Positions 6,892 through 35,649 of a stretch of DNA of 35,748 nucleotides are shown here, piece by piece (the first letter of the stretch is position 1; every line of letters starts with the position of its first letter). The translations under genes were made by a program, and so were the position numbers. The notes under the pieces were generated by a model. The model did not search any database. It had not been told where the DNA came from and saw only the letters and a list, made by a program, of their open reading frames with translations. Source of the stretch: Candidatus Methanoperedens sp. (GTDB taxonomy: Archaea; Halobacteriota; Methanosarcinia; Methanosarcinales; Methanoperedenaceae); assembly GCA_012026835.1 (NCBI GenBank), contig VEPN01000032.1, positions 1 to 35,748 on the forward strand, written 5' to 3'.

Positions 6892-7147
6892 AGATCTCAA
6901 TAAATTCATCGCATTCCTTGATGACTTCATTTGCAGCTTTTTTAATTATTGCTATCGGGTCTGCGCCGTCTGTCCTCACGAAAAGGATAGGGTCGCTTAT
7001 TGTTGTATGTTTGATATCATACGACGCTATTTCAACGTGTTTGTTGTTCAGTAAAGCGGTTTTCAATGTATTGAGGAGCGTATGGGTCTCCCCGACGACC
7101 TTGATGCTTATCTCGTTCTCGGTCTTATTGACGATTGTAAGTTCCAT
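6869..7147 (-). CDS. rpoL: DNA-directed RNA polymerase subunit L (Rpo11)
   Basis: A protein of 92 residues. It starts MELTIVNKTENEISIKVVGE and then has HTLLNTLKTALLNNKHVE, the archaeal Rpo11 pattern (eukaryotic RPB11, bacterial alpha-NTD fold). It should pair with subunit D to nucleate RNA polymerase assembly. Length is normal. It follows csl4 by 8 bases on the same strand, an arrangement that keeps RNA synthesis and exosome genes together. The 3' end overlaps the convergent DUF2240 gene. Confidence 0.92.
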   Translation of the reverse strand: MELTIVNKTENEISIKVVGETHTLLNTLKTALLNNKHVEIASYDIKHTTISDPILFVRTDGADPIAIIKKAANEVIKECDEFIEIFTKKAKD

Positions 7148-7155
7148 GATATCAC

Positions 7156-7701
7156 CTAAATAATGCCAGTCCCGTAATCAGAGGACAGTTTTCTTGTCTC
7201 GTTCCTGTTGCATTTGGGGCATTTGAGTTTCCCGTTATCCTTTTTCAATGCAGTCCTGCAATTGCCGCAATAAGCTTTCATCACACCGAGTTCTTTATTC
7301 ACTGTGGTAAGGCGCATGTTCCTCATATCTATGACCCTTGCTTTGACAATATCAAAAGGTGAAAATTCATAATATAATTCCTTCACATAAGCGTCCTTGA
7401 CATTTGAAACGTGGATTGCGGCCTGCTCGGCATTAAATATTTCCCGCTCGCCCCTTCCTTTGATACCTGCAATCTCAACAAGTGCTACTGAATCTTTCAC
7501 ATCAGTCACCTGGCCGATAACGATGTCCCCAACCTGCAGGTTGGGGGGCGTATTCGTGACAGGGGTTATTGAAATCGAGCGCTCCTTATTATTTATCTTT
7601 ACTATTCCGGTGGTTGCGGCATAAATATTGCCTTTATCTACGAAGGTCCCGGTTTTTCCCGTCAACTCCTCCGATGTTCCGATAAGGTCTCCAGGCAACA
7701 C
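7156..7701 (-). CDS. csl4: Exosome cap subunit Csl4, with probable N-terminal extension
   Basis: A core of 181 residues from a GTG codon. LPGDLIGTSEEL and GTFVDKGNIYAATTG open the N-terminal Csl4 domain; an S1-type RNA-binding domain follows in the middle. The C-terminal Zn-ribbon is CGNCRTAL plus CPKCNRN. Csl4 forms the RNA-binding cap of the archaeal exosome and bridges to DnaG. The reading frame remains open upstream of the GTG for about 79 codons (to 7938), encoding a basic patch and then a Glu-rich tract that looks translated, yet no ATG, GTG or TTG occurs there. The GTG at 7701 has only a weak Shine-Dalgarno. The true start is therefore unresolved. rpoL follows 8 bases downstream. Confidence 0.88.
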   Translation of the reverse strand: MLPGDLIGTSEELTGKTGTFVDKGNIYAATTGIVKINNKERSISITPVTNTPPNLQVGDIVIGQVTDVKDSVALVEIAGIKGRGEREIFNAEQAAIHVSNVKDAYVKELYYEFSPFDIVKARVIDMRNMRLTTVNKELGVMKAYCGNCRTALKKDNGKLKCPKCNRNETRKLSSDYGTGII

Positions 7702-7906
7702 GATTCTGGTTTCTTCCTGTACTTCCTGTGTCTCCTCTTCAGGTTGTTCTGTCTCCTCTTCTACTTCTTCTTCAATTTCCTGGGGAGCCTCTTCTGCCTC
7801 TAAAATCTCTTTTTCTTCAGTTTTATCAGCTTTCTCACTTTCTTCGCCTTTTCCAAGCTTTCTCCTGCTTGTAATCTTCCGTCTCTTTATTCTAATAATG
7901 ATCCCT

Positions 7907-8497
7907 CTATCTTTTCTCGATCCTGAATATCTCTGCTTTTATGACCTGTACTTCCCTGGTATGGAATCTGAATGTCCTTTTAATGGGAAAATCAATTAAT
8001 ATATGCTCTGTTATGACCGACGGGCTGATAAATTTTTTTATGAACTCGGCACTTCCGGCATTGTGTATGGAGTAAACCACGCTGCTTAGTTCGAGGGCTT
8101 TCCTCAAAAAAGGGCGGTCGCTTCCTTTCACCTGTGCGCCAAACGGCGGGTTCATCACCACCGAATGCGCTTTACCGCGCACCTCATTTATGCTGCTGCA
8201 TACGAACTCGACATCTGCGCCAAGCTTCTGTGCATTTGCCCGTGCAATCTCAAGAGCGTCTCTATCGTCATCAAACCCTATAACCTTTTCTGCTCCAAGG
8301 AGCTTTGCCCCGATGGCAAGTATTCCGCAGCCGCACCCAAGGTCATAGACAGTATCCGCGATATCCCCTTTCATGAATGCATAATGCAACAGTTCGGCTG
8401 CCACGGTTGCAGGCGTGGAATATTGTTCTTTTGATGGTTTCGGGGAAGAAAAGCCGCAAACCTGTTCCAGCAGTATCTCAAGATGTTTTTTTCTCAT
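7907..8497 (-). CDS. METTL5-like RNA adenine methyltransferase
   Basis: A protein of 196 residues, a class I SAM-dependent methyltransferase. It has the SAM motif YDLGCGCGILAIGAKLLGA (about 50-68), an acidic ribose-binding loop (FDDD), and the catalytic MNPPFGAQ motif (about 114-121) of N6-adenine methyltransferases. The N-terminal LEILLEQVCGF and PKPSKEQYSTPA are characteristic of the METTL5 family, which in eukaryotes methylates small-subunit rRNA; an rRNA target is inferred here. It overlaps the upstream methyltransferase by 4 bases and lies directly before the csl4 frame. Confidence 0.85.
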   Translation of the reverse strand: MRKKHLEILLEQVCGFSSPKPSKEQYSTPATVAAELLHYAFMKGDIADTVYDLGCGCGILAIGAKLLGAEKVIGFDDDRDALEIARANAQKLGADVEFVCSSINEVRGKAHSVVMNPPFGAQVKGSDRPFLRKALELSSVVYSIHNAGSAEFIKKFISPSVITEHILIDFPIKRTFRFHTREVQVIKAEIFRIEKR

Positions 8498-9147
8498 GTT
8501 TTTTTAGCTGTGAAGTGGAGGGCAGGCAGCATGGCTTCCCCGTGGATATTTACCTGTTCAAAATACTGCTTTGCAAAGGCCTTTATTCCCAATCCGTCAG
8601 CATCCTTTTTTACCAGGTTTCCAAGCATCAAAAGATGCGACCTTATAAAATCCCTTGGTAAGACTATCTCGCGTTTTATGGTTTCGACAGTGATCTCACC
8701 AAAGCCTGATAAGGAAAGCTGCCTGCTTATATCTTCGAATTCATGTGAGTAAAGAGCGCCTGAATTTCTAAGCAGTTCGTTGAATAAAAAGCTTGAGCGT
8801 TGCGCTTCATTCTGTGGAACCCACAGAAGGATCATGAAAGAAAAAACGGACTCGCTGTTCAATACTCTTGTCACTTCTTTAAAAATCGGGCCGAGCATGT
8901 CAAAAGGGACGAGGTCGAAGTAGTGGTATGAGATAACGGCGTCAAAAATCGAATCCCGGAATGGCAGATTTTGCGGTTTTATGAGGACAGCGTTTTTCAG
9001 GGGTCTTTTGGTCGTGACCCCGAAGACCGGGGAAGCAAGTTCATTAAAAAGTGCTCCCCCCAGATCGAGTACGCGCGTTTCCGGCTTGATATCAGACCGT
9101 TTAATAAATTCCTGTCTGTCTTTTGCTGCGTAGGGCATAATGATCAA
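8494..9147 (-). CDS. Class I SAM-dependent methyltransferase-like protein
   Basis: A protein of 217 residues with a methyltransferase fold: RVLDLGGALFNELASPVFGV stands where motif I would be, followed by NLPFRDSIFDAVISYHYFDL, the typical motif II/III region of type-11 methyltransferases. Motif I is unusual because it lacks the normal GxGxG, so catalytic competence is uncertain. The substrate is unknown. The 4-base overlap with the METTL5-like gene suggests the two are expressed together, possibly for rRNA or tRNA modification. Confidence 0.65.
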   Translation of the reverse strand: MIIMPYAAKDRQEFIKRSDIKPETRVLDLGGALFNELASPVFGVTTKRPLKNAVLIKPQNLPFRDSIFDAVISYHYFDLVPFDMLGPIFKEVTRVLNSESVFSFMILLWVPQNEAQRSSFLFNELLRNSGALYSHEFEDISRQLSLSGFGEITVETIKREIVLPRDFIRSHLLMLGNLVKKDADGLGIKAFAKQYFEQVNIHGEAMLPALHFTAKKT

Positions 9148-9238
9148 AAATTCGGCTGTTCCAGGTTAGAATTCTCCTTCGATAGGACTAATCTTTACCT
9201 CTATCTTAATAAATATTAGGTTCGCCATTTTAATCTCA

Positions 9239-10258
9239 TTAAATCCTGACCTCATCTATCAGGAAAGGTGGGTAAAAAACGCCGTTCTCGGTGATGACCG
9301 CGGTTACATTTTCCATAGGTGTGGCATCAAAGGCTGGATTATAAACCTTAACATCAAGGGGTGCTATCTGGTGTTTTCCGAAATACATCAGCTCTTCGGG
9401 TTTTCGAAGCTCGATCTCGATATCGTCTTCATAGTGCTCAAAATCGAAAGTCGATACCGGTGCAGCGATATAGAACGGTATCCCGTGCTCTTTTGCGATA
9501 ACGGAATGAGTGTATGTCCCTATCTTGTTGAATACCGCATCCTGTGTTATCCTGTCAGCACCCACGATGACCTTATCGACCATGCCTTTTCGCATTACAT
9601 GGCCCGACATGCTATCCGTGATGAGAGTGACCGGGATTTTATCTTCCATCAACTCCCACGCCGTAATGCGGCTTCCCTGATTAAGAGGACGGGTCTCGCA
9701 TGATATGACTTTTATATCCTTTCCTTCTTCTCTGGCCGAGCGGATAACCCCGAGAGCAGTTCCCCAGTCCACACACGCAAGCCTTCCTGCATTGCAATGT
9801 GTCATGACAGTATCGCCGTCATCAAGCAGTGCAGCACCGTATCTTCCCAATTCCCTGTTCTTCTCTACATCCTCGTCGGCTATTGCTTTTGCTTCATCCA
9901 GTGAAAAAACCCTCACTTCTTTAATATTATTGGCATCCTCAATCGCCCTGATAACCCGTTTCACGCCCCATGAAAGGTTGACTGCTGTGGGCCTTGTGCT
10001 GATTATAGTTTTTCCGGCTTTGGCCACTTCATCTATTAACACATCCAGCGTCGGGGCGTTGCTCCTGTAAGCCGCAAGGGCGACGCCGAACCCTCCCGCT
10101 GCTCCAAGTGCCGGAGCCCCCCGCACGCGAAGGGACTTTATGGCCTCGCACAGTGACCCGATTGTGTCACATTCAATTATTTTGTACTCCCCTGGCAGGA
10201 GGGTCTGGTCTATCATAATTATATTGTTTTTCTTAGAATCCCAGTCTATCGTTCTCAT
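9239..10258 (-). CDS. mtnA: Methylthioribose-1-phosphate isomerase (MtnA)
   Basis: A protein of 339 residues of the aIF2B/MtnA family. LRVRGAPALGAAGGFGVALA (about 43-62) is the substrate loop. HCNAGRLACVDWGTALGVIR (about 154-173) carries the catalytic cysteine, and the catalytic aspartate is in GADRIT (about 233-238). MtnA isomerises 5-methylthioribose-1-phosphate to methylthioribulose-1-phosphate. In archaea it may feed methionine salvage or the routing of 5'-deoxyadenosine and methylthioadenosine. Ribose-1,5-bisphosphate isomerase is a close relative, but the length and the RVRGAPALG signature favour MtnA. It is divergent from mfnE across 56 bases. Confidence 0.85.
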   Translation of the reverse strand: MRTIDWDSKKNNIIMIDQTLLPGEYKIIECDTIGSLCEAIKSLRVRGAPALGAAGGFGVALAAYRSNAPTLDVLIDEVAKAGKTIISTRPTAVNLSWGVKRVIRAIEDANNIKEVRVFSLDEAKAIADEDVEKNRELGRYGAALLDDGDTVMTHCNAGRLACVDWGTALGVIRSAREEGKDIKVISCETRPLNQGSRITAWELMEDKIPVTLITDSMSGHVMRKGMVDKVIVGADRITQDAVFNKIGTYTHSVIAKEHGIPFYIAAPVSTFDFEHYEDDIEIELRKPEELMYFGKHQIAPLDVKVYNPAFDATPMENVTAVITENGVFYPPFLIDEVRI

Positions 10259-10283
10259 TTTAATGGCTATTACATGCCGTTAC

Positions 10284-10292
10284 ATATTTAAA
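10284..10292. promoter_or_regulatory. Shared, near-palindromic TATA box for mtnA and mfnE
   Basis: ATATTTAAA lies 27 bases (centre to ATG) before the rightward ATG at 10315 and 30 bases before the leftward ATG at 10258. Archaeal TATA boxes sit about 26 bases before the transcript start, so both genes would have almost no leader. Because the motif is nearly self-complementary it could serve both directions. Confidence 0.5.
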
Positions 10293-10314
10293 CTCTTCAG
10301 GTCAGTAAAAAGAG

Positions 10315-10914
10315 ATGATAGTTATAAAGCTCGGAGGCAGCCTGATAAGCAGTGCAAAAGGGCTTGTAAAAGAGATACTCGATCATTCTGATAAATATGG
10401 TGACAAAATCCTGATTGTCCCCGGCGGTTCGGTCTTTGCAGACACTGTACGTAAAATAGATGTTTCACAGGAAGCTGCCCACTGGATGGCTGTTCTTGCA
10501 ATGGAACAGTATGCCTATTACCTGGCAGACGGGACGGGAGCAAAACTTATAGACAGTCTTAATGTCGAAGGTAAAGGGACATATATCCTTCTGCCCTACA
10601 GGCTGCTTAAAGAAAAGGATGAACTTCCGCACACCTGGGATGTTACTTCCGACACTATCGCAGCCTGGGTCGCAAAACAGCTTGATGCGCGATTCATCAA
10701 AGTTACGGACGTGGACGGCGTATATATAAACGGGGTACTGGAAAAAGAGATTTATGCAGGTGAACTCATAGGAAAAGAAACCTGTGTGGACAGGGAACTT
10801 CCATATTTCCTGATCAAGAACAAAATGAGTTGTAAAGTTATCAACGGGAATTGTCCCGGAAGGGTAATCAAAGCTCTCGAAGGCGAGATAATCGGGACGA
10901 TCGTTAAAGGATAA
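10315..10914 (+). CDS. mfnE: Amino acid kinase-fold protein, probable MfnE (methanofuran biosynthesis)
   Basis: A protein of 199 residues with the amino-acid-kinase fold. VIKLGGSLISSAKGLV (3-18) binds phosphate, ILIVPGGSVFADTVR (32-46) is the second glycine-rich loop, and FIKVTDVDGVYINGVLEKEI (about 124-143) is the nucleotide-binding segment. The short length and the DTVR...AHWMAVLAMEQYAYYLAD stretch match the small archaeal kinases assigned as MfnE, which phosphorylate 5-(aminomethyl)-3-furanmethanol phosphate during methanofuran synthesis. A generic amino acid kinase or a fosfomycin/isopentenyl-phosphate kinase relative is the alternative; isopentenyl-phosphate kinases are longer and have a catalytic histidine not seen here. 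The context with mtnA does not help. Confidence 0.7.
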   Translation: MIVIKLGGSLISSAKGLVKEILDHSDKYGDKILIVPGGSVFADTVRKIDVSQEAAHWMAVLAMEQYAYYLADGTGAKLIDSLNVEGKGTYILLPYRLLKEKDELPHTWDVTSDTIAAWVAKQLDARFIKVTDVDGVYINGVLEKEIYAGELIGKETCVDRELPYFLIKNKMSCKVINGNCPGRVIKALEGEIIGTIVKG

Positions 10915-11221
10915 ATTAAATAGCGTTGTCTTATCAAAGGTTAAATACCCATCCACAATGTCTTTAACTCTCTCAACAGCACCCTTTTCGCTATAATCCT
11001 TCGACCACGTCCGGAATCCGTTTCATCAAATCATCCGGCACTTCTGCGGTGTAGCTATCGGCTTCGGTGCTATGCCTATATATTTCCAGAGTGGTTCTTG
11101 TATCCAACGCAAGACCACACAGCATATAGAAATGAGCGAAGGCGCTATTTTCCTCTTCGATTGAGACTTCGCTATATTTATGTAGCGCTATTTTTAGCCC
11201 CCTTTTTGTCTGGATGCACAT
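10905..11221 (-). pseudogene. Probable frameshifted gene fragment
   Basis: A 76-codon frame (11221 to 10991) ends ...MKRIPDVVEGL. Sequence that looks equally protein-like continues in the next frame (KDYSEKGAVERVKDIVDGY...) past the stop to about 10905, where it runs into the 3' end of mfnE. I read this as one gene broken by a frameshift near 10995, with its N-terminus probably lost too: the ATG at 11221 has no Shine-Dalgarno and the frame is open only five codons further. I do not recognise the family. The alternative is a genuine 76-residue protein. Confidence 0.4.
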
Positions 11222-11371
11222 ACTGGAAGGGCAGGTTTAAGCTTGCTACTTTCTTTTTGCTTGTTTTGTACTATCCCAACACAATCGATACGAGTATAAT
11301 TAATTTGAAAGAATATTTATGGCAGCACAAGGTATTAAGCCATCATCAATTGGAAATAATGAGAGAATAAT

Positions 11372-11683
11372 ATGGATGAAGAAGACAAAATTCACATCTA
11401 TAAAGGTATCTTTATGATACTTCCCTTGCTATTCTTTATGGTACTTTTCGATACTCAGTTGGAAAGATTTAGAGAGTTGATAGGAGCGATTCTTTTATTT
11501 CAATTAGGTATATTCTTTATAGCTGGGGTAGCAGAACTATTTTATGCTTTAGGATTCATGCATAAAAATGAAGATGAGGACAAAATCTGTTTAACCAAAG
11601 AAATGTACCAGCGAATATTAGAATATGAACAACAAAAGGCTCAAATGGAAAATGAGAACAGAGGAAAGGAATTGGATAAGTGA
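11372..11683 (+). CDS. Small two-span membrane protein, unknown function
   Basis: A protein of 103 residues with two hydrophobic segments. IFMILPLLFFMVLF is at about 14-27 and LIGAILLFQLGIFFIAGVAE at about 36-55. A charged, helical C-terminal tail follows (about 65-103, rich in Glu, Gln, Lys). No family is recognised. It starts with an ATG close to a weak GAGAG element. It stands in an AT-rich patch between gene remnants, and may be an acquired gene. Confidence 0.5.
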   Translation: MDEEDKIHIYKGIFMILPLLFFMVLFDTQLERFRELIGAILLFQLGIFFIAGVAELFYALGFMHKNEDEDKICLTKEMYQRILEYEQQKAQMENENRGKELDK

Positions 11684-11712
11684 AACCAATAAGATGTTCT
11701 GAGTTTGGATGC

Positions 11713-12279: not shown

Positions 12280-13302
12280 TTAATATAATGTTGCGACTAA
12301 ACTACCATCCATCAATATTATTCCTTCCTTGACCAGCTCTTCATCAATTTCGAGATTATCAAATGCCGCAAGCATATTCAGCTCCATAATAAAGAGATCG
12401 AGTAACGATTTCAAATATGTGAATGCTGAACTTATTAGAGGTTGTGATATATTTTTACTTATAAAATACTGATGACATATAAATTTGTCTCTTTCCACAA
12501 CCCTTTTTAAGTAATCTCTGATCAAATTTTGTGCGTTTGGTGATATGCTTCTAATAACAATTTCTGAAAAATCGATACTTTTTATAATCCCAAGATCACC
12601 TTTTTCGTTCATTTGAATTCTTTGGATTGAATCCGTTTTAAACTTGAAAAAATCCCATCTTAAATCCTTAGTAACATATGATGGTAAATCAAAAAATTTT
12701 TCTCTATCTAAATGTATTTTGAGGTGTTCTTTTGCGTTTTCATAATCTTGGCTCAGTTCTATATTCATATTTTTAATATATTCCAATAATTTTTCTCTTA
12801 ATTTCAGAGGGGGGATATAATCGTTGAAATCCTTTAGAAGATTACTATAAACTTTTCCAAATTTGTATAAATTTTCCCTTTTCAAATTTATCGGTAGAGT
12901 TGATAGCAACTCTGTACCCATAGAATATACATCTCGGTTTTTTTCTCCCTGCCATAATCCTCTACAAGACATGTTGACATCTAACTGAATTCTCCAATTG
13001 AAAGAGATGTAAATTGGGAATTCTCTACATATCCTTGGTCGTATATCATAGATCTTGCATTTTTTACCTTCAAGAAAAATACAACTACCAATATCCCCCT
13101 TTTTTAGAGAAAAAGAGCGCCTTTCTGTTGATGTTGGGTCTTTAATGCATCCAAGTACAACACCATTTTTAGTTCGTATGTTATTTTGATAAAATTTATA
13201 CTCAGCTTTTTTTAATGCTGGTTGAAAGGTACAACAAAAACCACATCCTTCTAAACATTTGAATTTTAATCCCTTGAGAGGTGAGAGATCTACTTCGTTC
13301 AT
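12280..13302 (-). CDS. YkgJ-type cysteine-cluster protein
   Basis: A protein of 340 residues. The N-terminal part has FKCLEGCGFCCTF (14-26), then CIFLEGKKCKIYDIRPRICR (about 74-93) and a later MSCRGLW (about 111-117). This is the pattern of the YkgJ/CxxCxxCC family, thought to bind a metal ion or an Fe-S cluster. The remaining 200 residues are helical and not recognised. Function unknown. It is AT-rich compared with the core genes. A TATA-like TATATTTAAAA (13327-13337) lies about 30 bases before the ATG, so the transcript is probably leaderless. Confidence 0.75.
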   Translation of the reverse strand: MNEVDLSPLKGLKFKCLEGCGFCCTFQPALKKAEYKFYQNNIRTKNGVVLGCIKDPTSTERRSFSLKKGDIGSCIFLEGKKCKIYDIRPRICREFPIYISFNWRIQLDVNMSCRGLWQGEKNRDVYSMGTELLSTLPINLKRENLYKFGKVYSNLLKDFNDYIPPLKLREKLLEYIKNMNIELSQDYENAKEHLKIHLDREKFFDLPSYVTKDLRWDFFKFKTDSIQRIQMNEKGDLGIIKSIDFSEIVIRSISPNAQNLIRDYLKRVVERDKFICHQYFISKNISQPLISSAFTYLKSLLDLFIMELNMLAAFDNLEIDEELVKEGIILMDGSLVATLY

Positions 13303-13326
13303 ATCTTTAGCGTTCTAAGTCTGATG

Positions 13327-13337
13327 TATATTTAAAA
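13327..13337 (-). promoter_or_regulatory. TATA box of the YkgJ-type gene
   Basis: An AT-only run of 11 bases centred 30 bases before the ATG at 13302, the spacing expected for a leaderless archaeal transcript. Confidence 0.45.
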
Positions 13338-13397
13338 GTTCTGAATTGTTTCCTAACAAAAAATAGAAGTGGAATATAACCATTAGATTTCTTTACG

Positions 13398-13442
13398 TTA
13401 AATTTAATAGCATTAGATTCTATGGAAGTCCCAAAATAGGAG
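13398..13442 (+). promoter_or_regulatory. TATA box and Shine-Dalgarno of the Zn-ribbon / EF1-beta operon
   Basis: TTAAATTTAA at 13398-13407 is a good archaeal TATA element, and AGGAG at 13438-13442 lies 6 bases before the ATG at 13449. Transcription should begin near 13430 and cover both translation genes. Confidence 0.5.
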
Positions 13443-13448
13443 AATATT

Positions 13449-13613
13449 ATGGCAGAACAAAAAAAATGTATATCATGCGGAGTAAATCTTATTGAGCGCG
13501 GTTATGCGCGATTCCCGTGCCCGCAATGCGGAACAGAACTCGGAAGATGCGTGCGCTGCAGGCACCAGAGCAATTCTTATAAATGCCCCAACTGCGGGTT
13601 TGAGGGACCGTGA
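13449..13613 (+). CDS. Small Zn-ribbon protein (HVO_2753-like), upstream of aEF1-beta
   Basis: A protein of 54 residues, almost entirely Zn-ribbons. It has four CxxC pairs: CISC (7-10), CPQC (24-27), CVRC (34-37) and CPNC (46-49), enough for two Zn sites. It resembles the archaeal small Zn-finger proteins encoded next to elongation factor 1-beta. The role is unknown; the steady linkage to a translation factor suggests a ribosome- or RNA-associated function. The stop at 13611-13613 is followed 4 bases later by the aEF1-beta start, so the genes form an operon. Confidence 0.85.
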
Positions 13614-13617
13614 AAAA

Positions 13618-13884
13618 ATGGGAGAAGTTGCAGCCAAGATACAGGTAATGCCATCAGGCATGGACGTTGATTTAAAAGACCTCCAGGAACAGTTAAAAAA
13701 AGTTATTCCCAGCGGGGCACGCTTGCACAGCTTTTCTGAGCAACCCGTGGCCTTTGGCCTGAAAGCCCTCATAGTTGTAGTCAAAGTAGGCGATATTGAA
13801 GGCGGAACAGAGAAGGTTGAAGAAGCCTTCAGTAAGGTAAAGGGAGTAGAAAGCGTATCAGTTGTAGAACTCGGCAGGATGTAG
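13618..13884 (+). CDS. ef1b: Elongation factor 1-beta (aEF1B)
   Basis: A protein of 88 residues, the full length of archaeal aEF1-beta. It starts [19 protein letters not shown] and contains [17 protein letters not shown] (about 44-60) and [20 protein letters not shown], the EF1-guanine-exchange domain. It promotes GDP/GTP exchange on aEF1-alpha in the cytoplasm. I chose the ATG at 13618; the same frame is open further left, but that segment overlaps the Zn-ribbon gene. tRNA-Ala begins 39 bases downstream on the same strand. Confidence 0.93.
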
Positions 13885-13923
13885 GAAAATCTTATATTCC
13901 CGTGGGTGATATTATTTTTTTCA

Positions 13924-13995
13924 GGGCCTGTAGATCAGGGGTAGATCGTTGCGTTCGCAACGCAAAGGCCGCGGGTTCGAATCCCGCCGGGTCCA
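13924..13995 (+). tRNA. tRNA-Ala (anticodon CGC)
   Basis: A full cloverleaf of 72 bases. The acceptor GGGCCTG pairs with CGGGTCC and includes the G3-U70 wobble, the alanine identity element. The D stem is GATC/GATC; the anticodon arm is TTGCG, loop TTCGCAA, CGCAA; the T arm is GCGGG, loop TTCGAAT, CCCGC. The discriminator is A. CCA is not encoded. It reads GCG codons. Confidence 0.95.
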
Positions 13996-26393: not shown

Positions 26394-26429
26394 GAACTAT
26401 TATAATGTATGCAGGACATTCTTTGCAGG

Positions 26430-27737
26430 ATGAAAATAGCAATGAGCATTGCAGGCGTTGATCCCGGCGGGGGAGCGGGTATAGCCGCAGATATAAAAAC
26501 ATTTGCCGCATTCGGGGTGCACGGGACATGCGTGGTAACATCGGTAACAGCACAGAACACAAAAGGCGTGCTGGGTTCATTCGATCTCCCTGTAAAATTC
26601 ATTGAGGACCAGTTCAATGCCGTGATTAACGATATCAAAGTCGATTGCGTAAAGACCGGGATGCTCTCATCTCCTGATATTGTGAGAGCAGTCGCGGGGA
26701 TGGTAGAAAAACAAAAATTACCTCTTGTAATCGACCCTGTAATGGCGGCAGAGGCCGGCGGGGAGCTCCTTAGGGATGAGGCTGTCAGGATTTTAATTGA
26801 AGAACTTTTGCCGCTGGCTGAGGTGGTCACGCCTAATGTATTCGAGGCAGAGCGCTTATCAGGAATGGGAATTAAGGATATTGACGGAGCCAGGAAAGCG
26901 GCCAGGAAAATCCATGACCTTGGCGCAAAAGCTGTTATTGTGACAGGCGGTCATCTTGAAGGGACAGATGTTCTTTATGACGGGGACTTTACTCTCATAG
27001 AAGGAAAATTAGTAAAAGGGGGAACACACGGTTCAGGATGTACCCATTCAGCCGCGATAACGGCAGAGCTTGCCATGGGAACGCACCTTATAGAAGCTGC
27101 AAGGCGCGCAAAGGAATTCGTGGGACAGGCGATACTTGCAAGTATAAAAATAGGCGGCGGGGCGGCGCCTGTAAACCAGGCGGGCCGGATGCTTGCGGAT
27201 TCGGAAAGATATCATGTCCTGACCAGCGTGAAAGAAGCTGTTGAGCTTATTGAAAAAAATAAGGTATTTTCCGGACTCGTCCCGGAGGTTGGATGCAACA
27301 TCGCAATGGGTATTCAGGGTGCTTCTTCAATAAAAGACGTGGCTGCTGTCTCAGGAAGGATAGTCAGGTTAAAAGGCTCACCCCGTGCTGTCGGATGCGT
27401 GGAATTCGGCGCGAGCAGCCATATTGCACGGATAGTGCTTACAGCGATGCAGTATGATGGTTCGACAAGGGCAGCGATGAATATACGTTATTCCGAAGAT
27501 ACGCTTTCTGTATGCAGGAGACTCGGTATGAAAATAGCTTCGTTCTCAAGAAAGGATGAGCCTGAAGACGTATCAACAATGGAATGGGGTGTGGCTGAAG
27601 CTATAAAGAATGCAGGCTGTCTCCCTGATGTGGTTTATGATAAAGGCGATGTCGGGAAAGAGGCGATGATCCGCCTCCTGGGCAGGGATGCCGTGGAAGT
27701 TGCTGGAATGGCGCTTCAGATTATCGCTTTTCAGTAA
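26430..27737 (+). CDS. thiDN: Bifunctional HMP-P kinase / thiamine-phosphate synthase (ThiD-ThiN)
   Basis: A protein of about 435 residues. The N-terminal half is ThiD: SIAGVDPGGGAGIAADIKTF, VKTGMLSSPDIVRAVAG, VIDPVMAAEAG, and GTHGSGCTHSAAITAELA. It phosphorylates hydroxymethylpyrimidine phosphate. The C-terminal half (from about residue 270) is ThiN: VPEVGCNIAMGIQGASS, GCVEFGASSHIAR, and MEWGVAEAIKNAG, which joins pyrimidine and thiazole in most archaea in place of ThiE. I prefer the ATG at 26430, which gives the normal short ThiD N-terminus; an ATG at 26409 is also in frame. No thi-box riboswitch is seen upstream. Confidence 0.9.
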   Translation: MKIAMSIAGVDPGGGAGIAADIKTFAAFGVHGTCVVTSVTAQNTKGVLGSFDLPVKFIEDQFNAVINDIKVDCVKTGMLSSPDIVRAVAGMVEKQKLPLVIDPVMAAEAGGELLRDEAVRILIEELLPLAEVVTPNVFEAERLSGMGIKDIDGARKAARKIHDLGAKAVIVTGGHLEGTDVLYDGDFTLIEGKLVKGGTHGSGCTHSAAITAELAMGTHLIEAARRAKEFVGQAILASIKIGGGAAPVNQAGRMLADSERYHVLTSVKEAVELIEKNKVFSGLVPEVGCNIAMGIQGASSIKDVAAVSGRIVRLKGSPRAVGCVEFGASSHIARIVLTAMQYDGSTRAAMNIRYSEDTLSVCRRLGMKIASFSRKDEPEDVSTMEWGVAEAIKNAGCLPDVVYDKGDVGKEAMIRLLGRDAVEVAGMALQIIAFQ

Positions 27738-27785: not shown

Positions 27786-27993
27786 CTGGTGATTTCTGTC
27801 ATTTTATCACATGAGGGAATTATTCCTCAAACAATAATACTGTGCACAACGGGATATTTCCATTTACTACTATACGTAGCAAAGGCCATACCTGCCCCAC
27901 TGTTAAAGAAAATTAAATATGAAAAGCTATTAAAATCAAAACTCATTATTATGATAGTGATTAGTGTAAAAAAACAAATTTAAAGGCCAATGC

Positions 27994-29454
27994 ATGATCC
28001 TGCGTAAAAATATCTCTTTAACTGAGGAATATCTAAAAAAACTCGGACCTCTCCTGGAAAAACATAACGGGAACCTCAGCGCTGTCATACGCGAGGTAAT
28101 AGACCTGGCGGATGCGGCGTTTGCAGACCCGGACTCGGTAAAAAGGCTTATTTCAGGATTAAGAGAGGAGCAGAACCTGACCTCTTCGACCCTCATATGG
28201 GCTCTTAAAAATCTTACAGGCAGAATGCCGGACTGGGAGATGGTCAGAAACATCGTCGGTAACAATATATCTTCAGTCTCATCCCTTGAAACGCGTTTAA
28301 ACGAACTCTGCGGTGAGATATACTGGGCCTCTTCCATTAAAATAAGCCCCGATGATGATAACAGGCCGACAAGCGCCGTTTTTACTATCACAGGGAAAAA
28401 CCAGGATATGAACAGGTACCTTGCATCTGTAACAGCCCTGTTCATTGCAAGAAAATTCGGCATGGGCGTATCAGGGACTAAAAATATAAATAACTCTTTT
28501 GAGATGGAGATGAAAAAAGGGGAAAACGAGTGGGCGCTTAAAAGCATCATTGGGAACTTCGGGTATTTCGATGAGGTTTTTTCTGAAATTTACAAAAAAC
28601 CGGAATTCTGGGCAATACTAATAACCCTTTATATAAAGATGAATTATGACATGGTGGCGATGTCAAGGCTGTTCTATGAAGAAATCCTGGGGGAAAAGAC
28701 GCCTAAAACCACGATATGTATCGAAAGATTTTACGATTGTCCTGTTAACAGCATCCCTCATGAAGAGTTCATTAAAAAAATAGCAGCGCTTTACCCATGC
28801 ATGGGTATAATTAAAAAATTGGATATAAATAAAGATTCATTAATAATACATCACGGCCTTACCGACCCCGGGGCTGTTAAAAAACTGGCAGATATGTTCA
28901 CTGATATACTGAATTTGAGCGGTCATACCTACGGCCCGCAAATCAGTGAGAGCCTTATAGTTATGAAGCAGCAGCCTGAGGTGGGGAAAATACTCACAAG
29001 GATGATAGATGATCTAAAACCAAGGGAACTTCCACTTTCGGATTATCATAAAGATCTCCTCAAGCTGCTGGATATTTTGAAAAATGTACCCCCTGATGAA
29101 GAGTTCATAAAATCATTTGGAAGCAAGTTTGGCAAAAAAATGATACAGAATTATGAAAAAGACAGGAGCGTAGAAAAATGGAATGCCGAAATGTTTGTAA
29201 ATTACCTGAAAGAAGCAAGCATCATCATTGGGCAGGATTCGAACTGGTCAAATGTGAGTGAAAGTGTAATCCACGGCGAAATTACCGGATGTAACCTTGT
29301 AAAATGTAATGGCGATATCAGTGTCACCAATTGCATGTTCATCAAAGGGATTTTCAACGGCTGGGTAAACCATGCTTTTGGAGCCCCTTCAAAACTGGTT
29401 TATAATAACGGTGCAGGCAGGACCGACGTCTGTGAAATCTATATTGCGCTTTAG
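27994..29454 (+). CDS. Unknown protein with ribbon-helix-helix-like N-terminus, in sensor-kinase operon
   Basis: A protein of 486 residues. The first 45 residues (MILRKNISLTEEYLKKLGP, then HNGNLSAVIREVIDLAD) look like a ribbon-helix-helix DNA-binding segment: a beta-strand followed by two helices. The rest is mixed alpha/beta; LTDPGAVKKLADMFTDI and PHEEFIKKIAALYPCMG lie in the middle. The C-terminus (EITGCNLVKCNGDI, then NCMFIKGIFNGW and VCEIYIAL) places four cysteines around glycines, faintly like V4R/hydrocarbon-binding domains. I cannot assign a family with confidence. It lies 14 bases before the sensor kinase, so a role as a transcriptional output or sensor of that system is inferred. A TATA-like AAATTTAAA (27977-27985) is so close to the ATG that the promoter may lie further upstream. 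Confidence 0.65.
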   Translation: MILRKNISLTEEYLKKLGPLLEKHNGNLSAVIREVIDLADAAFADPDSVKRLISGLREEQNLTSSTLIWALKNLTGRMPDWEMVRNIVGNNISSVSSLETRLNELCGEIYWASSIKISPDDDNRPTSAVFTITGKNQDMNRYLASVTALFIARKFGMGVSGTKNINNSFEMEMKKGENEWALKSIIGNFGYFDEVFSEIYKKPEFWAILITLYIKMNYDMVAMSRLFYEEILGEKTPKTTICIERFYDCPVNSIPHEEFIKKIAALYPCMGIIKKLDINKDSLIIHHGLTDPGAVKKLADMFTDILNLSGHTYGPQISESLIVMKQQPEVGKILTRMIDDLKPRELPLSDYHKDLLKLLDILKNVPPDEEFIKSFGSKFGKKMIQNYEKDRSVEKWNAEMFVNYLKEASIIIGQDSNWSNVSESVIHGEITGCNLVKCNGDISVTNCMFIKGIFNGWVNHAFGAPSKLVYNNGAGRTDVCEIYIAL

Positions 29455-29468
29455 TACCAGGTAATCAA

Positions 29469-32400
29469 ATGACAAAAACTAATCATGCCTTAAAGGTGCT
29501 GATAATAACAGGCTCAGTTTTCTTAATGGGATACTTGCTTGAATCGCTGCGTCATATTTCCCCTATGGCAGGAGACTATTTTACAATCTCAACAGAGCTT
29601 TTATCGCTTGTCCTGTCCTTTTCCATCTCATGCGTGACATGGTATACATACAGGAGAAGCAGGGATAACCATTCACTTTTCCTTGGCGCTGCTTTTCTTG
29701 TGGTCGGGCTTTTTTATTTTTTCCACCTGCTATCTTATCCATTCATGCCTGATTTCATAACACCCAACTCCTTACAGAAAGCAGCGATCTTCTGGAACGA
29801 GGCAGGGCTGGTTTCAGGTATCTTATTCCTTGCAAGTGCATATGTGTATAAAGACACATTCCCGAAAGCTATCAACAAATCCAGCCTGTTCATAGCCGCG
29901 ATAGTATTATCTATTATTCCTCTTGCCCTGACGCTATTTTTTGCTGATGGGCTTCAAGTCATATATTCCCAGCGGGGGATAGACCCCTTGGTGCCAGGCA
30001 TATTTTTACAATTTATTATATCATCGCTTGTCCTCTATGCAGGCTACCTGTACTCAGAGAGGCTTCAAAAGACAGGCCAGGAGAACTTGGTCTGCATGAT
30101 ATACGGCTTTATAATACTGTTTTTCAGCTATGTTGTATATTTTTTTTACGAATATCCGGAACATCTGCTCAGGGCGGCAGGTTTCTATTTCGTATATCTT
30201 GCTTTGTATAAGTCCTCTATAGACCTTCCTTATGAAACTCTGGCTCGTACTGATGAAAAGCTTAGAAAAGCAACAGAGGAAAAGTACCGCAACCTTTTCG
30301 ACAATGCACATGACGCAATCATAACAACAGATCTTAACGACAGGATCACCTCATGGAATCACAGCGCATGGAAATTGTTCGGCTGGACAGCCGGTGAGGC
30401 TACCGGAAAAAACCTCTCTGTGCTGATAATTCCAGAAGCCCGGTGGGATGAAAGGAAACAGATTATCCGTGACGCCATGTCAGGCTCTGAAGTTGTGGCG
30501 TTTGATACCGTTAATATACGTAAGGATGGAACAGAAGTCGATGTAAATGTCACGATATCACCCCTGCGAGCAGAAAATAATACCCTCGCATTATCGTCCA
30601 TCGTCAGGGATATAACAGAGCGCAAGAGGTCAGAGAGAGAATTACAATACAGGCTTGATTTTGAAAAACTCATAATGAACCTTTCAACAAACTTCATCAA
30701 CATAGCCCCGGATGAGATTGATAAGGAGATTAACGATGCATTAAGAACTATAGGAGAATTCTCAGACATTGATCGCAGTTATGTTTTGCTTTTTTCGGAC
30801 GATAGAACATCAATTAACAACACGCACAGATGGTGCAGCAATAAAGACGCATCCCATATACGGATGCCAAAGAGAGAACAATTTGATTCTTTCAAATGGT
30901 TTTCAGAAAAAATGAGGAGACGTGAGACAATTTATGTCCCCCGTATCGCTAACCTTCCACCCGAAGCGGGTGCAGAAAAAGCAATGCTTCAGCAGACCCC
31001 GGTAAAATCGCTGATAGAAGTTCCCATGATAAATGGCGGGCTTGTTATCGGCTATCTTGGTATGGCTTCTGTGAGGAAAGAAGTAATCTGGCCTGAGGAT
31101 ATGATTGCCCTTCTGAAAATAGTGGGAGAGATATTTGTAAATGCACTGGTGCGCAAACATGCTGAAGAAAAACTCAAGCAATCCGAGGAAAAATACAGGA
31201 CGCTTATCGATAATAACCATGACGGGATTTTTATTATTCAAAATTATAAAATCCACTTTGTCAACGAGGCGTTTGCCAGGATTGGCGGGTACACGGTTGA
31301 AGATGTAATAGGAAAGAGTTTCCAGGAGTTCATAGCGCCTGAAGATAAGGAGAGGGTCGTAGATTACTATGCCAGGAGACTGGCAGGTGAAGATATCCAG
31401 AGGGAATATGAATTCAATATACTTCATAAGGACAGGAAAACAAGAATCACGGTACATCTGAATGTCGGGACGATCAATTACCTTGGCGGGATAGCAACGA
31501 TGGGATCGATGACTGATATTACTGAGCGAAAGCGTGCCGAGGAAGCGCTGTCCTGGGAACTGGAAGTCAATGCAACCATCGCGGAAATGTCAAGCACATT
31601 GCTCTCTTCTGCGAACGTTGATGAAATCTCATCCTTCGTACTTGAGCACGCAAAGCGTCTCACAGGCAGCATATATGGTTATGTCGGGTATGTAGACACG
31701 AAGACAGGCTATCTTGTCTGCCCTACTATGACAAGGGACATGTGCGATACATGCAAAGTCAAGGATAAGAATAATATACTCAAGGATTTCCAGGGACTTT
31801 TCGGCTGGGTATTGATAAATGGTAAATCCCTTCTTACAAACTCGCCTGCAGATGATCCAAGGTCATCGGGCACGCCAGAGGGCCATATACCCATCCATCG
31901 TTTCCTATCTGCCCCTGCATTACTGAAAAGGGATCTTGTGGGCCAGCTTTCGGTTGCAAGTCCTGTCGGGAACAAGATCCACATAATGCGATATTATGAT
32001 AAGGGTCAACTGGTGGGCCAGGTGGCATTGGCTAACTCCGATCGTGATTATACTGACCGTGACCTTGCTTTTATCGAGCGCTTGGCAGACCTTTATGCTA
32101 TCGCCATTAATCGCAACTGGACAGAGATGCAGATCAAGGAATCTCTCAAAGAGAAGGATGTACTGCTGCGGGAGGTCCACCACAGGGTCAAGAATAACAT
32201 GCAGATAATCTCAAGCCTTCTGCGGCTCCAGTCCAGGTATATAACTGAGGAAAAGTACCTGGAAATGTTCACTGAAAGCCAGAACAGGATAATGTCGATG
32301 TCGCTTATCCATGAAAAGCTTTACCAGTCCAAAGGCCTGGCAAGAATTGATTTTGATGATTATATCAGAGACCTTGTAACCGGCCTGTTCCAGTCTTATT

Positions 32401-32759
32401 GTGTGAATAGCAACATTACACTGGATATGGACGTAAAGAAAATTTCTCTGGGGATTGATTCTGCTATCCCATGCGGATTGATAGTCAACGAACTGGTTAC
32501 TAACTCGTTAAAACATGCGTTTCCTGAAGGCAGGAAAGGCAGGATAGGGATAATTCTGCGCCCGGCGGGTGAAAATATGGTCGAACTCATGGTAAGCGAT
32601 GATGGTGTAAGCATTCCCCCGGATGTGGACATAAATAAAACAGAATCGCTGGGCCTGCATCTTGTTACAATAATGGTGGAGAACCAGCTTCATGGTCAGA
32701 TAGATCTGGATCGAAGCAAGGGAACAGAATTCCGTATTAAGTTCAGGGATGTGAAATAA
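29469..32759 (+). CDS. Multi-domain sensor histidine kinase (MASE3-PAS-GAF-PAS-GAF-HisKA_2-HATPase)
   Basis: A protein of 1096 residues. Seven or eight hydrophobic spans (about 10-250) resemble the MASE3 sensor domain. Then come PAS (about 270-390, EEKYRNLFDNAHDAIITTD), GAF (about 400-555), PAS (about 565-690), and a second GAF (about 700-880) with cysteines C751, C759 and C762 and the EGHIPIHRFLSAPAL motif. A HisKA_2 dimerisation domain follows with EVHHRVKNN, phospho-acceptor H905. A HATPase_c domain ends the protein with NELVTNSLKHAF and SDDGVSIPP. It should autophosphorylate in response to a cytoplasmic or membrane signal. Partner: the response regulator, whose start overlaps the stop by one base (TAATG). 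Redox or heme sensing by the GAF cysteines, as in Methanosarcina MsmS-type kinases, is possible but unproven. Confidence 0.9.
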   Translation: MTKTNHALKVLIITGSVFLMGYLLESLRHISPMAGDYFTISTELLSLVLSFSISCVTWYTYRRSRDNHSLFLGAAFLVVGLFYFFHLLSYPFMPDFITPNSLQKAAIFWNEAGLVSGILFLASAYVYKDTFPKAINKSSLFIAAIVLSIIPLALTLFFADGLQVIYSQRGIDPLVPGIFLQFIISSLVLYAGYLYSERLQKTGQENLVCMIYGFIILFFSYVVYFFYEYPEHLLRAAGFYFVYLALYKSSIDLPYETLARTDEKLRKATEEKYRNLFDNAHDAIITTDLNDRITSWNHSAWKLFGWTAGEATGKNLSVLIIPEARWDERKQIIRDAMSGSEVVAFDTVNIRKDGTEVDVNVTISPLRAENNTLALSSIVRDITERKRSERELQYRLDFEKLIMNLSTNFINIAPDEIDKEINDALRTIGEFSDIDRSYVLLFSDDRTSINNTHRWCSNKDASHIRMPKREQFDSFKWFSEKMRRRETIYVPRIANLPPEAGAEKAMLQQTPVKSLIEVPMINGGLVIGYLGMASVRKEVIWPEDMIALLKIVGEIFVNALVRKHAEEKLKQSEEKYRTLIDNNHDGIFIIQNYKIHFVNEAFARIGGYTVEDVIGKSFQEFIAPEDKERVVDYYARRLAGEDIQREYEFNILHKDRKTRITVHLNVGTINYLGGIATMGSMTDITERKRAEEALSWELEVNATIAEMSSTLLSSANVDEISSFVLEHAKRLTGSIYGYVGYVDTKTGYLVCPTMTRDMCDTCKVKDKNNILKDFQGLFGWVLINGKSLLTNSPADDPRSSGTPEGHIPIHRFLSAPALLKRDLVGQLSVASPVGNKIHIMRYYDKGQLVGQVALANSDRDYTDRDLAFIERLADLYAIAINRNWTEMQIKESLKEKDVLLREVHHRVKNNMQIISSLLRLQSRYITEEKYLEMFTESQNRIMSMSLIHEKLYQSKGLARIDFDDYIRDLVTGLFQSYCVNSNITLDMDVKKISLGIDSAIPCGLIVNELVTNSLKHAFPEGRKGRIGIILRPAGENMVELMVSDDGVSIPPDVDINKTESLGLHLVTIMVENQLHGQIDLDRSKGTEFRIKFRDVK

Positions 32760-33835
32760 TGTCAGAAACTAAGATATTGGTTGTTGAAGATGAGGTTATT
32801 GTAGCAGAGGATATTAGAAGCAGTTTAGAGAATATGGGGTATGTTGTACCGTCAACTGCATCCTCCGGGGAAGAGGCCCTCAAAAAAGTCGCACAGTTCA
32901 TGCCTGATCTGGTATTGATGGATATTATCATCCAAGGCAGGATGGATGGGATTGAAACTGCAAAAGAAATACGTTCACGTTTTAATATCCCGTTTGTGTA
33001 TCTTACTGCATTCTCAGATATAAAAACGCTTGAGAGGGCAAAAATAACCGAGCCTTTCGGCTATATCATTAAGCCCTTTAAAGAACGGGAATTGCATATC
33101 AATATTGAGATAGCCCTTTTCAAGCATAAGATGGAGACAAGGTTGAAGGAAAGCAAGGAGTGGTTCACCACGACCTTAAAAAGTACAAGTGATGCTGTTA
33201 TCGCAACAGACCCGGATGGTTGTGTGAAGTTCATGAATCCGGTTGCCCAGTCCCTGACCGGGTGGGAATTTGCACAGGCCAGCGGGAAGCCGCTGAAAGA
33301 AGTGTTCGATATTATTAGTAAGGAAGCTATGATCAAGGGAAATCAAACAGTTCTTGTCAGCAGGAACAAATCCAATATACCCATTGAAGTCAGCAGCGAC
33401 CCCATAAGAGATGAGAAGGGGAACATAACAGGCATTGTTATGGTGTTCCGTGATATTACAGAGCGCAAACGGGCGATGGATGAAATTATCCGACTTAAAG
33501 GGTTTTATGAAAGCGTTCTTGAAGGTATTGTTAACGGTGTATGGGTGACTGATAAAGACGATATTATTGTGTATTCCAATAAGGGGATGAAGGCAGTTAC
33601 AGGTTTGACCGCAAAGGAAATCGAGGGCGCAAGTGCTTTGAAAGATTTCCAGGAATTTTTCAGGCCGTATTATATGAAGGCCAGGGAAACGTTACAGCCT
33701 TTCTATTACCAGGCTGTTCCTTTTATCACCCCTGATAAGGGTACAAGCTACCAGTCGGGATGGCTGGTTCCGCTTATCAAGGATGGGAAGTTCAGTGGCA
33801 TGATATGCACTATCGAGAGCATCCCGAAACATTAG
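32759..33835 (+). CDS. Response regulator REC-PAS-PAS without DNA-binding domain
   Basis: A protein of 358 residues. The REC domain (1-120) has E10 and D11, the phospho-acceptor D55 in LVLMDIIIQG, the threonine in YLTAFSD and K105 in YIIKPF. PAS 1 spans about 130-245 (STSDAVIATDPDGCVKFMNP) and PAS 2 about 250-358 (GFYESVLEGIVNGVWVTDKD). No output domain (DNA-binding, enzymatic or kinase) follows, so it probably acts by protein contact. Archaeal regulators commonly have REC-PAS-GAF arrangements like this. The gene overlaps the kinase stop by one base. It ends next to a decayed minus-strand remnant. Confidence 0.9.
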   Translation: MSETKILVVEDEVIVAEDIRSSLENMGYVVPSTASSGEEALKKVAQFMPDLVLMDIIIQGRMDGIETAKEIRSRFNIPFVYLTAFSDIKTLERAKITEPFGYIIKPFKERELHINIEIALFKHKMETRLKESKEWFTTTLKSTSDAVIATDPDGCVKFMNPVAQSLTGWEFAQASGKPLKEVFDIISKEAMIKGNQTVLVSRNKSNIPIEVSSDPIRDEKGNITGIVMVFRDITERKRAMDEIIRLKGFYESVLEGIVNGVWVTDKDDIIVYSNKGMKAVTGLTAKEIEGASALKDFQEFFRPYYMKARETLQPFYYQAVPFITPDKGTSYQSGWLVPLIKDGKFSGMICTIESIPKH

Positions 33836-34200: not shown

Positions 34201-35649
34201 AATGTTATGAGAACACTTCAACAGCAAAAATCTTGTCCTGAGAATGAATTGCCGGGTAAAAATATATCAAATAATTTTATGGCCTAAGCTATATAAGTTC
34301 AGAAAAATCAACCACAATGTACTATTTTTAAATTTAACTTGGAATTAAGTATATGCACCTCCACAACTCAATTTTTTGACAGTGTATCCTGCCCTAACAA
34401 GGACATTTACCATATCTTGCTCAGTCATTCGGACAGGGGAGGAAGCCCTATCCAGCTTGACATTTTTAACTTTTGAGGATTCATCTACATATTTCTCTCT
34501 ATTCAACAGAAGATGGTGCAATACGCAAAGTATTTTCCTGGCTAATGCCACAATTGCTTTCTTCTTTCCTCTTCTTGCCTGTACTCTTAGAAAGAATCTC
34601 TTCAACTTTGAGCTCTTTGACCTGACAATAGCATGAGCAACCTGAACAAGCATCCTTCTTACGTGTTTTGAGCCCTGTTTTGTAATATTACCTGTAACAA
34701 GCACATCTGCGGATTGGGAAACACTCGGTACGAGTCCGCACCATGAAGCAAGCTGTTCGCCAGTTTTAAAATCTTTATAGTTTCCTATCTCTGCCAGTAC
34801 CGTTATTGCTGATGTTAATCCCATCCCTGGCATGGACATTACAATCTCTAAATCCTCTCTCACCCTCTGGATTCTGGTCAGGATTTCTTTGTCCAGCTTC
34901 TCGATTTCACCTTGAATCTTTTCAATCAGCCCAAGATATGTTTGTATCATGAAAACCTTTGCAGGGTCCAAGCTGTTTTTTATGGCATCTCTTAACATCT
35001 GCTCCTTTTCAAGAATTTTTTTAGATGTTATCCCTTTCAGGATTTCATCTATGCTCTTTCCTTCAAGTAAACCATTCAGGATTTGCATTCCAGACTTCCC
35101 AAAAATGTCAGAGAGAACTGAGGAAATCCTGATGCACGATGATTCCAGTGCTTGATGAATCCTGTTCTTCATTTGAGTACTATTATTGACCAGGTTTTCT
35201 CGTGCTCGTGTTAATGTTCTAAGTTCCCTATCTTCTCTTGGAAAAATTCTTGAAGGTTCTATCATTCCGTTGAGACATAACTGTGCAATCCATTCGGAAT
35301 CTCGCATATCTGTCTTCCTCCCAGGTGTATGCTTGATCTTGTAGGCATTTGCTACGATTACATCTATGCTTCCTTCTAAAGTTGTATATATTGGAACCCA
35401 ATATACACCAGTTGATTCCATTGCAGCTTGTTCGCAATTGTTATCTATGACCCATTTCTTAAACTCCAGGATATCATTGAGATTCATTCCAAATCTCTTT
35501 GTAATTTTATATCCATCTCTGGAAAGAATTGTGGCAACAATGAATTTCTTGTGAATATCGGCTCCGCAAACTTTTTCTTTTTGTTTCTCCATAACTCTCT
35601 ATTCCTGATATGAGCAGTTATTACTGATGTTCACACATAACATTCAGCC
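34201..35649 (-). mobile_element. IS110-family insertion sequence, probable IS1111 subgroup
   Basis: A minus-strand transposase is flanked by an imperfect inverted repeat. On the plus strand AATGTTATG with AGAACA starts at 34201; read on the minus strand from 35642 comes AATGTTATG with GTGTGAACA. The nine-base match plus GAACA gives a unit of about 1.45 kb, a normal IS110/IS1111 size. Sub-terminal inverted repeats are a feature of IS1111 rather than classical IS110. About 130 non-coding bases lie between the transposase stop and the left repeat. Exact ends and target site are uncertain because these elements make no target duplication. Confidence 0.6.
34345..35592 (-). CDS. IS110-family transposase (DEDD plus serine recombinase)
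   Basis: A protein of 415 residues. The N-terminal RuvC-like DEDD domain has D12 (CGADIHKKF), E59 (AAMESTGVYW), and D95/D98 (GRKTDMRDSEW). A coiled middle (about 140-250) leads to the Transposase_20 domain (MPGMGLTSAITVLAEIG, then LASWCGLVPSVSQSAD) with the likely catalytic serine S294. All expected catalytic residues are present and the frame is intact, so the element may still be active. These enzymes are guided by an RNA encoded by the element's own non-coding end. Confidence 0.93.
   Translation of the reverse strand: MEKQKEKVCGADIHKKFIVATILSRDGYKITKRFGMNLNDILEFKKWVIDNNCEQAAMESTGVYWVPIYTTLEGSIDVIVANAYKIKHTPGRKTDMRDSEWIAQLCLNGMIEPSRIFPREDRELRTLTRARENLVNNSTQMKNRIHQALESSCIRISSVLSDIFGKSGMQILNGLLEGKSIDEILKGITSKKILEKEQMLRDAIKNSLDPAKVFMIQTYLGLIEKIQGEIEKLDKEILTRIQRVREDLEIVMSMPGMGLTSAITVLAEIGNYKDFKTGEQLASWCGLVPSVSQSADVLVTGNITKQGSKHVRRMLVQVAHAIVRSKSSKLKRFFLRVQARRGKKKAIVALARKILCVLHHLLLNREKYVDESSKVKNVKLDRASSPVRMTEQDMVNVLVRAGYTVKKLSCGGAYT

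Follow-up and report, generated by a model that had tools for sequence, protein, structure and literature searches.

Gene order and domain composition of the locus

A 35,748-nucleotide stretch of DNA from Candidatus Methanoperedens sp. (GenBank assembly GCA_012026835.1, contig VEPN01000032.1), referred to below as the window, carries three co-directional genes that encode a 486-residue protein (P486), a histidine kinase, and a response regulator. The window corresponds to contig C45 of a 3.3-Mb genome with a completeness of 99.8%, and the three genes, called as open reading frames (ORFs), are as follows.

27994-29454, + strand: P486, a predicted ribbon-helix-helix (RHH)/V4R-like transcription regulator of 486 residues (ORF and profile/structure comparison)
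29469-32759, + strand: histidine kinase of 1096 residues with the architecture MASE3-PAS-GAF-PAS-GAF-HisKA_2-HATPase_c (ORF and Pfam)
32759-33835, + strand: REC-PAS-PAS response regulator of 358 residues, without a DNA-binding domain (ORF and Pfam)

An initial annotation, made by a model from the sequence alone, had placed three genes at these positions, in this order, and with 14 bases between the first and the second, all of which is borne out by the ORF coordinates; the kinase and regulator genes overlap by one base. It had also described a MASE3/PAS/GAF kinase and a REC-PAS-PAS regulator that cannot bind DNA on its own, and both descriptions agree with Pfam. The kinase matches HisKA_2 (PF07568, E value of 2.4e-31) and HATPase_c (PF02518, E value of 2.7e-10), together with MASE3, PAS, and GAF, and its phosphoacceptor site looks intact (H-box HHRVKNN at residue 904). 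In the regulator, Pfam recognizes a REC domain, with Asp55 present and the site apparently intact, and two PAS domains, but no DNA-binding domain.

Linkage and co-inheritance of P486 with kinase and regulator genes

We compared the locus across related genomes, all of them drafts in which genes were called mechanically; the trees were built on 125-212 columns and are partially resolved. The window protein falls in a clade of 16 genes (47-67% identity), one of which, in G025, has its locus split over contigs L249 and L208 and was counted through L208. In 15 of the 16, one or more genes for a kinase and/or a REC protein come after P486 on the same strand. Kinase or REC genes lie within 4 kb of 15/16 clade members versus 3/37 other members of the family (those with flanking sequence, a few on short contigs), and the linkage is far above chance. 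P486 is usually followed by a HisKA_2 kinase and a REC-PAS protein, and in one subclade by a HisKA kinase, a REC-only protein, a HisKA_2 kinase, and a REC-PAS protein.

Beyond adjacency, the genes have been inherited together. Distances among P486 proteins correlate with those among their kinases (r of 0.87 over 13 loci; Mantel P value of 0.0002) and with those among the REC proteins (r of 0.72). The linked kinases are spread over several lineages of the kinase tree, three of which match clades of the P486 tree. Two genomes, G008 and G023, carry two copies of P486 each, and every copy sits with a kinase of its own lineage, a pairing not expected from a species tree alone.

P486 belongs to a family without a profile of its own

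By profile and model comparison, P486 is a member of an undescribed family of Methanosarcinales with a predicted architecture of an RHH-like head, two alpha-beta modules, and a V4R/MetOD1-like tail. The protein matches no model of its own in Pfam or NCBIfam and gives no Pfam match to HTH-DUF1724 (helix-turn-helix [HTH] regulators of the Msr type); we found no viral homologues and no credible sequence match between solved structures and either the whole protein or its head. The closest named matches, from Candidatus Methanoperedens nitroreducens Mnv1 and an uncultured archaeon, are 66-67% identical. The family has 10 matches in the window's own genome and occurs in all 34 genomes examined from the taxonomic family and in 91/149 genomes of the order, often in multiple copies, with lengths of either 340-400 residues (head and two modules) or about 480 (tail added). 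An AlphaFold model of P486, based on 66 sequences, has a mean predicted local distance difference test score of 80. The two middle modules were considered as further V4R homologues, which hhalign does not support (probability of <2%). The terminal domains are located as follows.

27994-28134, + strand: RHH-like head, residues 1-47, with the predicted contact strand RKNISL, in which residue 6 is Asn (profile and predicted model)
29011-29451, + strand: V4R/MetOD1-like C-terminal domain, residues 340-486 (hhalign, Foldseek)

The RHH_1 profile matches 7/25 members of the family, weakly (best E value of 0.0057) and without a match to the window protein itself, and hhalign aligns the head with bona fide RHH proteins from that order at an E value of 0.003 and a probability of only 10% in the best of 19 sliding windows. 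The profile-profile alignment places RKNISL...LSAVIREVI in register with the genuine RHH proteins, and a G-N-x-S-A-x-I-R turn is conserved almost throughout the heads of the family. In the predicted model, residues 1-10 are extended and are followed by helices at 11-23 and 28-44; the model is of a single chain, and the RHH strand pairs only within a dimer. The alignment of the head with RHH proteins of known structure predicts that residues 4, 6, and 8 face the DNA.

The tail (residues 340-485) is matched by hhalign to V4R (probability of 96, E value of 1e-9) and to MetOD1 (probability of 77, E value of 2e-5), and the Foldseek matches of the whole model (Bet3, H-NOX, and BcsD) fall on this domain, to judge from alignment length and the profile comparisons. 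The initial annotation had noted a cysteine-bearing tail of unknown type; the cysteines are there, but the type is recognizable. The window protein has a three-cysteine cluster, as do most clade members, but none of these cysteines occurs in its two closest orthologues (G002 and G027); we therefore regard the tail as homologous to V4R/MetOD1 without filing it as either, and we reject a cysteine-rich metal site as a property of the clade. P486 may itself sense a ligand through this domain.

A promoter palindrome tracks P486

The region upstream of P486 contains three elements.

27864-27882, no strand assigned: motif A, a 19-bp imperfect palindrome, TTACTA-N7-TAGCAA, the probable P486 operator (comparison of clade promoters)
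27921-27936, + strand: B recognition element (BRE)/TATA-like promoter element GAAAAGCTATTAAAAT (in G002 and G027, almost identical bases precede P486, and in G028, the kinase)
27943-27961, + strand: motif B, an AT-rich repeat, TCATTATTATGATAGTGAT, just 3' of the TATA (by eye)

Motif A, with the consensus TTRYTA-N7-TMRYAA, is common to the upstream regions of P486 orthologues that lie in unrelated surroundings. It occurs at 0-1 mismatch in 12/16 promoters of the clade (without mismatch in 9/15, and with one mismatch in two further promoters and in G025). No exact match was present among 53 upstream regions of kinases unlinked to P486 or 409 upstream regions of other genes, and one mismatch was seen in 3 and 14 of these, respectively. 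In the window, motif A lies 38 bp upstream of the BRE/TATA-like element, a placement that suits activation. As judged by eye and without statistics, BRE/TATA-like elements similar to that of the window precede other orthologues too, and ATNATNAT-like elements occupy the position of motif B in several.

Genes for IS240-like transposases start about 50-70 bases from motif A beside P486 in G002 and G027 (L250 and L258), where they neighbor the divergent genes, and likewise at one further locus without P486 (L252, G000:C24), where motif A has the IS240-like transposase gene on one side and an HxlR-like gene on the other. We considered whether motif A is a mere insertion-sequence end and rejected this: no such gene adjoins the P486 sites of the window, G003, and G025 or those at a second gene in four genomes (see below).

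A second candidate target and a possible specificity residue

The consensus was derived from the P486 promoters themselves, and the fair tests are sites outside them; a stricter form of the pattern, applied genome-wide, gives about one control match per genome. In G002, G027, and G003, strict sites outside the P486 promoters lie before an orthologous gene of the DUF5658 type, which encodes a small membrane protein. Among DUF5658 orthologues with at least 50% identity, motif A is present in four P486-bearing genomes (G027, G002, G003, and, with 1 mismatch, G025), and P486-bearing G031 has a site with 2 mismatches; the orthologues in four P486-free genomes (G011, G004, G024, and G017) have no motif A, that of G011 being at the syntenic locus. 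A single motif A is shared by the divergent P486 and DUF5658-type genes of G025, with a REC-only gene after, and in 3/4 relatives, the DUF5658 gene is followed by a REC or partial REC gene.

Residue 6 of P486, in the predicted contact strand, is Asn in the window protein; one subclade of five has Ser in its place. The fourth base of the half-site is C with Asn6 and T with Ser6 at all 12 motif-bearing loci. The 480-residue paralogues of P486 have other predicted contact residues and no motif A.

Natural loss of P486 in the nearest relative

The nearest relative, G028 (L190, G028:C57:169000-188900), retains the syntenic order of ThiD/ThiN fusion gene, promoter, kinase, and regulator but lacks exactly the bases that correspond to window positions 27986-29436; 98 bp of the promoter are kept at 91% identity, with the kinase on the other side of the gap, and its REC and HisKA_2/HATPase domains share 95% identity with those of the window. 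In the kinase tree, the window/G028 pair has as its neighbors the kinases that are linked to P486 in G002 and G027, so that a loss of P486 in G028 is the simpler reading. The whole genome of G028 has no strict motif A site. G028 shows that P486 does not strictly accompany this kinase/regulator pair, and it offers a ready-made natural P486 mutant. In the window, the ThiD-ThiN fusion gene (26409-27737, + strand) lies 5' of the operon, and a gene for an IS110-family transposase (34345-35592, - strand) lies just 3' of it.

Relatives of P486 at other loci

Members of the family outside the clade stand beside genes of several kinds. At L055 (G000:C43:15500-35400), three 480-residue relatives (6978-8420, 9005-10447, and 12491-13933) are interspersed among genes that encode NrfD, a 4Fe-4S protein, cytochrome b561, and proteins with CxxCH heme-binding motifs, and they may regulate respiratory complexes. 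At L054 (G000:C25:36500-56400, positions 9782-11708), family genes for 350 and 222 residues lie directly 5' of genes for a REC protein and a row of archaellins, where they are possible archaellum regulators. In other families of the order, relatives of 488-521 residues lie tail to tail with an operon (L090, positions 6005-7471; L089; L094; and L095); that at L090 is rnf (RnfC, RnfD, RnfA/E, and RnfB), and the other three were judged by gene lengths only. In Methanosarcina-like genomes, a relative of 359-376 residues adjoins genes recognized by eye from their sequences as mtr (L134, G122:C1:318000-332000, positions 6586-7716; L137, positions 6893-7972), and a second site (L135) holds relatives as three tandem copies.

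DISCUSSION

The palindrome, the second target gene, the covariation at residue 6, and the co-inheritance with kinase and regulator all support the suggestion, made in the initial annotation, that the first protein is the transcriptional output; with DNA binding as a prediction from sequence, P486 is probably a DNA-binding output that regulates its own operon. The fuller reading, in which a split archaeal signaling system has P486 as its DNA-binding output and the regulator modulates P486, we regard as marginally probable. A dimer of the RHH-like head would bind motif A and regulate from there the P486-kinase-regulator operon and, in some relatives, the gene for the DUF5658 small membrane protein as well. 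The membrane kinase would phosphorylate the REC-PAS-PAS regulator, which, unable to bind DNA, would most likely modulate P486 by protein-protein contact, with the alpha-beta modules and the V4R/MetOD1-like tail as possible sites; the tail may also add a ligand or redox input. Gene order, domains, conserved linkage, co-inheritance, and the tracking of P486 by motif A are computational results. DNA binding and phosphotransfer are inferred from sequence, and the action of the regulator on P486 is proposed because of the linkage and co-inheritance.

Several observations weigh against this reading. The RHH match of the family falls under curated cutoffs, and no RHH protein is listed among the Foldseek matches of the P486 model; the ribbon-helix-helix head put forward in the initial annotation is thus supported by the helix order and the register of the alignment but is unproven at such scores. 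Motif A is absent from four members of the clade (G022, G023b, G031, and G032), and the covariation at residue 6, although suggestive, amounts to a single change on the tree. The three-gene arrangement also varies: G007 has P486 and the regulator with no kinase between, G031 has P486 and the kinase with no regulator after, and G032 has P486 without either. Kinase/REC-PAS pairs of this kind are numerous in the genus, nearly all of the others without an adjoining P486, and in G028, both kinase and regulator have been under purifying selection since the loss (ratios of nonsynonymous to synonymous substitution rates of 0.14 and 0.11, respectively); the pair can persist without P486, at least for some time. 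Finally, most family members outside the clade of the window protein stand without a kinase. The initial annotation had named kinase-free homologues as evidence against its model, which holds for the family as a whole but not for the clade, where linkage is the rule.

The chief rival to this reading takes P486 as a one-component regulator, with a tail that senses ligand or redox state and a head that binds motif A, the kinase and regulator being targets that signal elsewhere. It would account for the V4R-like tail, for the kinase-free relatives near cytochrome, Rnf, mtr, and archaellin genes, and for the many kinase/REC pairs without P486, including the pair kept by G028; we nevertheless think it doubtful, in that linkage is limited to the kinase-linked clade, three lineages of this clade have each retained a kinase lineage of their own across deep divergences, and the two closest orthologues have lost the tail cysteines. 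A second rival holds that P486 does not bind DNA and that a different transcription factor, which happens to be co-inherited with P486, recognizes motif A. The weak RHH similarity and the site on C24 between IS240-like transposase and HxlR-like genes would fit; we consider it improbable, since motif A tracks P486 rather than the kinase or regulator and its half-site changes with the very residue for which the RHH alignment predicts DNA contact. That the three genes are neighbors without a functional tie, as the relatives lacking one or another of them might suggest, is very hard to reconcile with linkage of 15/16 versus 3/37 and with the matched trees.

Returning to P486 as the output of a split system, we advance a broader proposal tentatively, as one that may well not hold: that archaeal REC-PAS regulators have in the P486 clade their first DNA-binding partner, with the phosphorylated regulator controlling P486 in trans and the V4R/MetOD1-like domain as the receiving surface, in a split counterpart of REC-MetOD1, and that the remaining family members would then make up a large class of RHH proteins regulating energy metabolism (cytochrome, Rnf, and mtr operons) in anaerobic methanotrophic archaea and Methanosarcina. 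The operon also brings to light a family of probable transcription regulators without a Pfam or NCBIfam model in methane-oxidizing or methane-making archaea.

Comparison with known systems

With RHH proteins such as NikR or CdrS, P486 is predicted to share the register of a strand and two helices and the GNxSAxIRE turn; it differs in its weak profile score, its length of 486 residues, and its V4R-like tail. NikR carries an ACT-like domain.

The initial annotation had supposed the three-part layout to be undescribed, and among the described systems that we compared in the open-access literature, none has an RHH/V4R-like protein in an operon with a kinase and a REC-PAS regulator. The MA4377 neighborhood of Methanosarcina acetivorans, in which a kinase and REC-only proteins neighbor MsrC/MsrX (PMC11784639), is a partial precedent: at both loci, stand-alone transcription regulators are encoded close to kinase and REC genes. 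The Msr regulators, however, are HTH-DUF1724 proteins whose involvement was excluded by the authors' preliminary data (PMC11784639), whereas the probable partner in the window is RHH/V4R-like, belongs to the same operon, and is co-inherited. LtrK/LtrR of Methanococcoides burtonii and FilI/FilR of Methanosaeta harundinacea are archaeal two-component systems (PMC11784639, PMC5847659) that likewise tie a kinase and REC regulator to gene control; there, the HTH of LtrR and the putative DNA-binding domain of one FilR lie within the REC protein, whereas here the predicted domain is on a separate protein.

MetOD1 is a REC-attached output domain related to V4R and HNOB, and V4R and MetOD1 have a conserved three-cysteine cluster (PMC5847659). 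The tail of P486 is homologous to these domains but has an RHH-like head, not REC, attached to it, and the cluster is not kept clade-wide. The closest comparison is with the regulator itself. Most archaeal response regulators have no output domain, and for the REC-PAS and REC-PAS-PAS regulators among them, the interacting partners were stated to be unknown (Galperin et al. 2018, PMC5847659). The regulator at 32759-33835 has exactly the same architecture and differs in having a conserved adjoining DNA-binding candidate and a probable operator. To this question, the operon contributes a concrete candidate for the partner, a candidate operator of 19 bp, and a further probable target gene, which make testable how archaeal sensors reach their genes.

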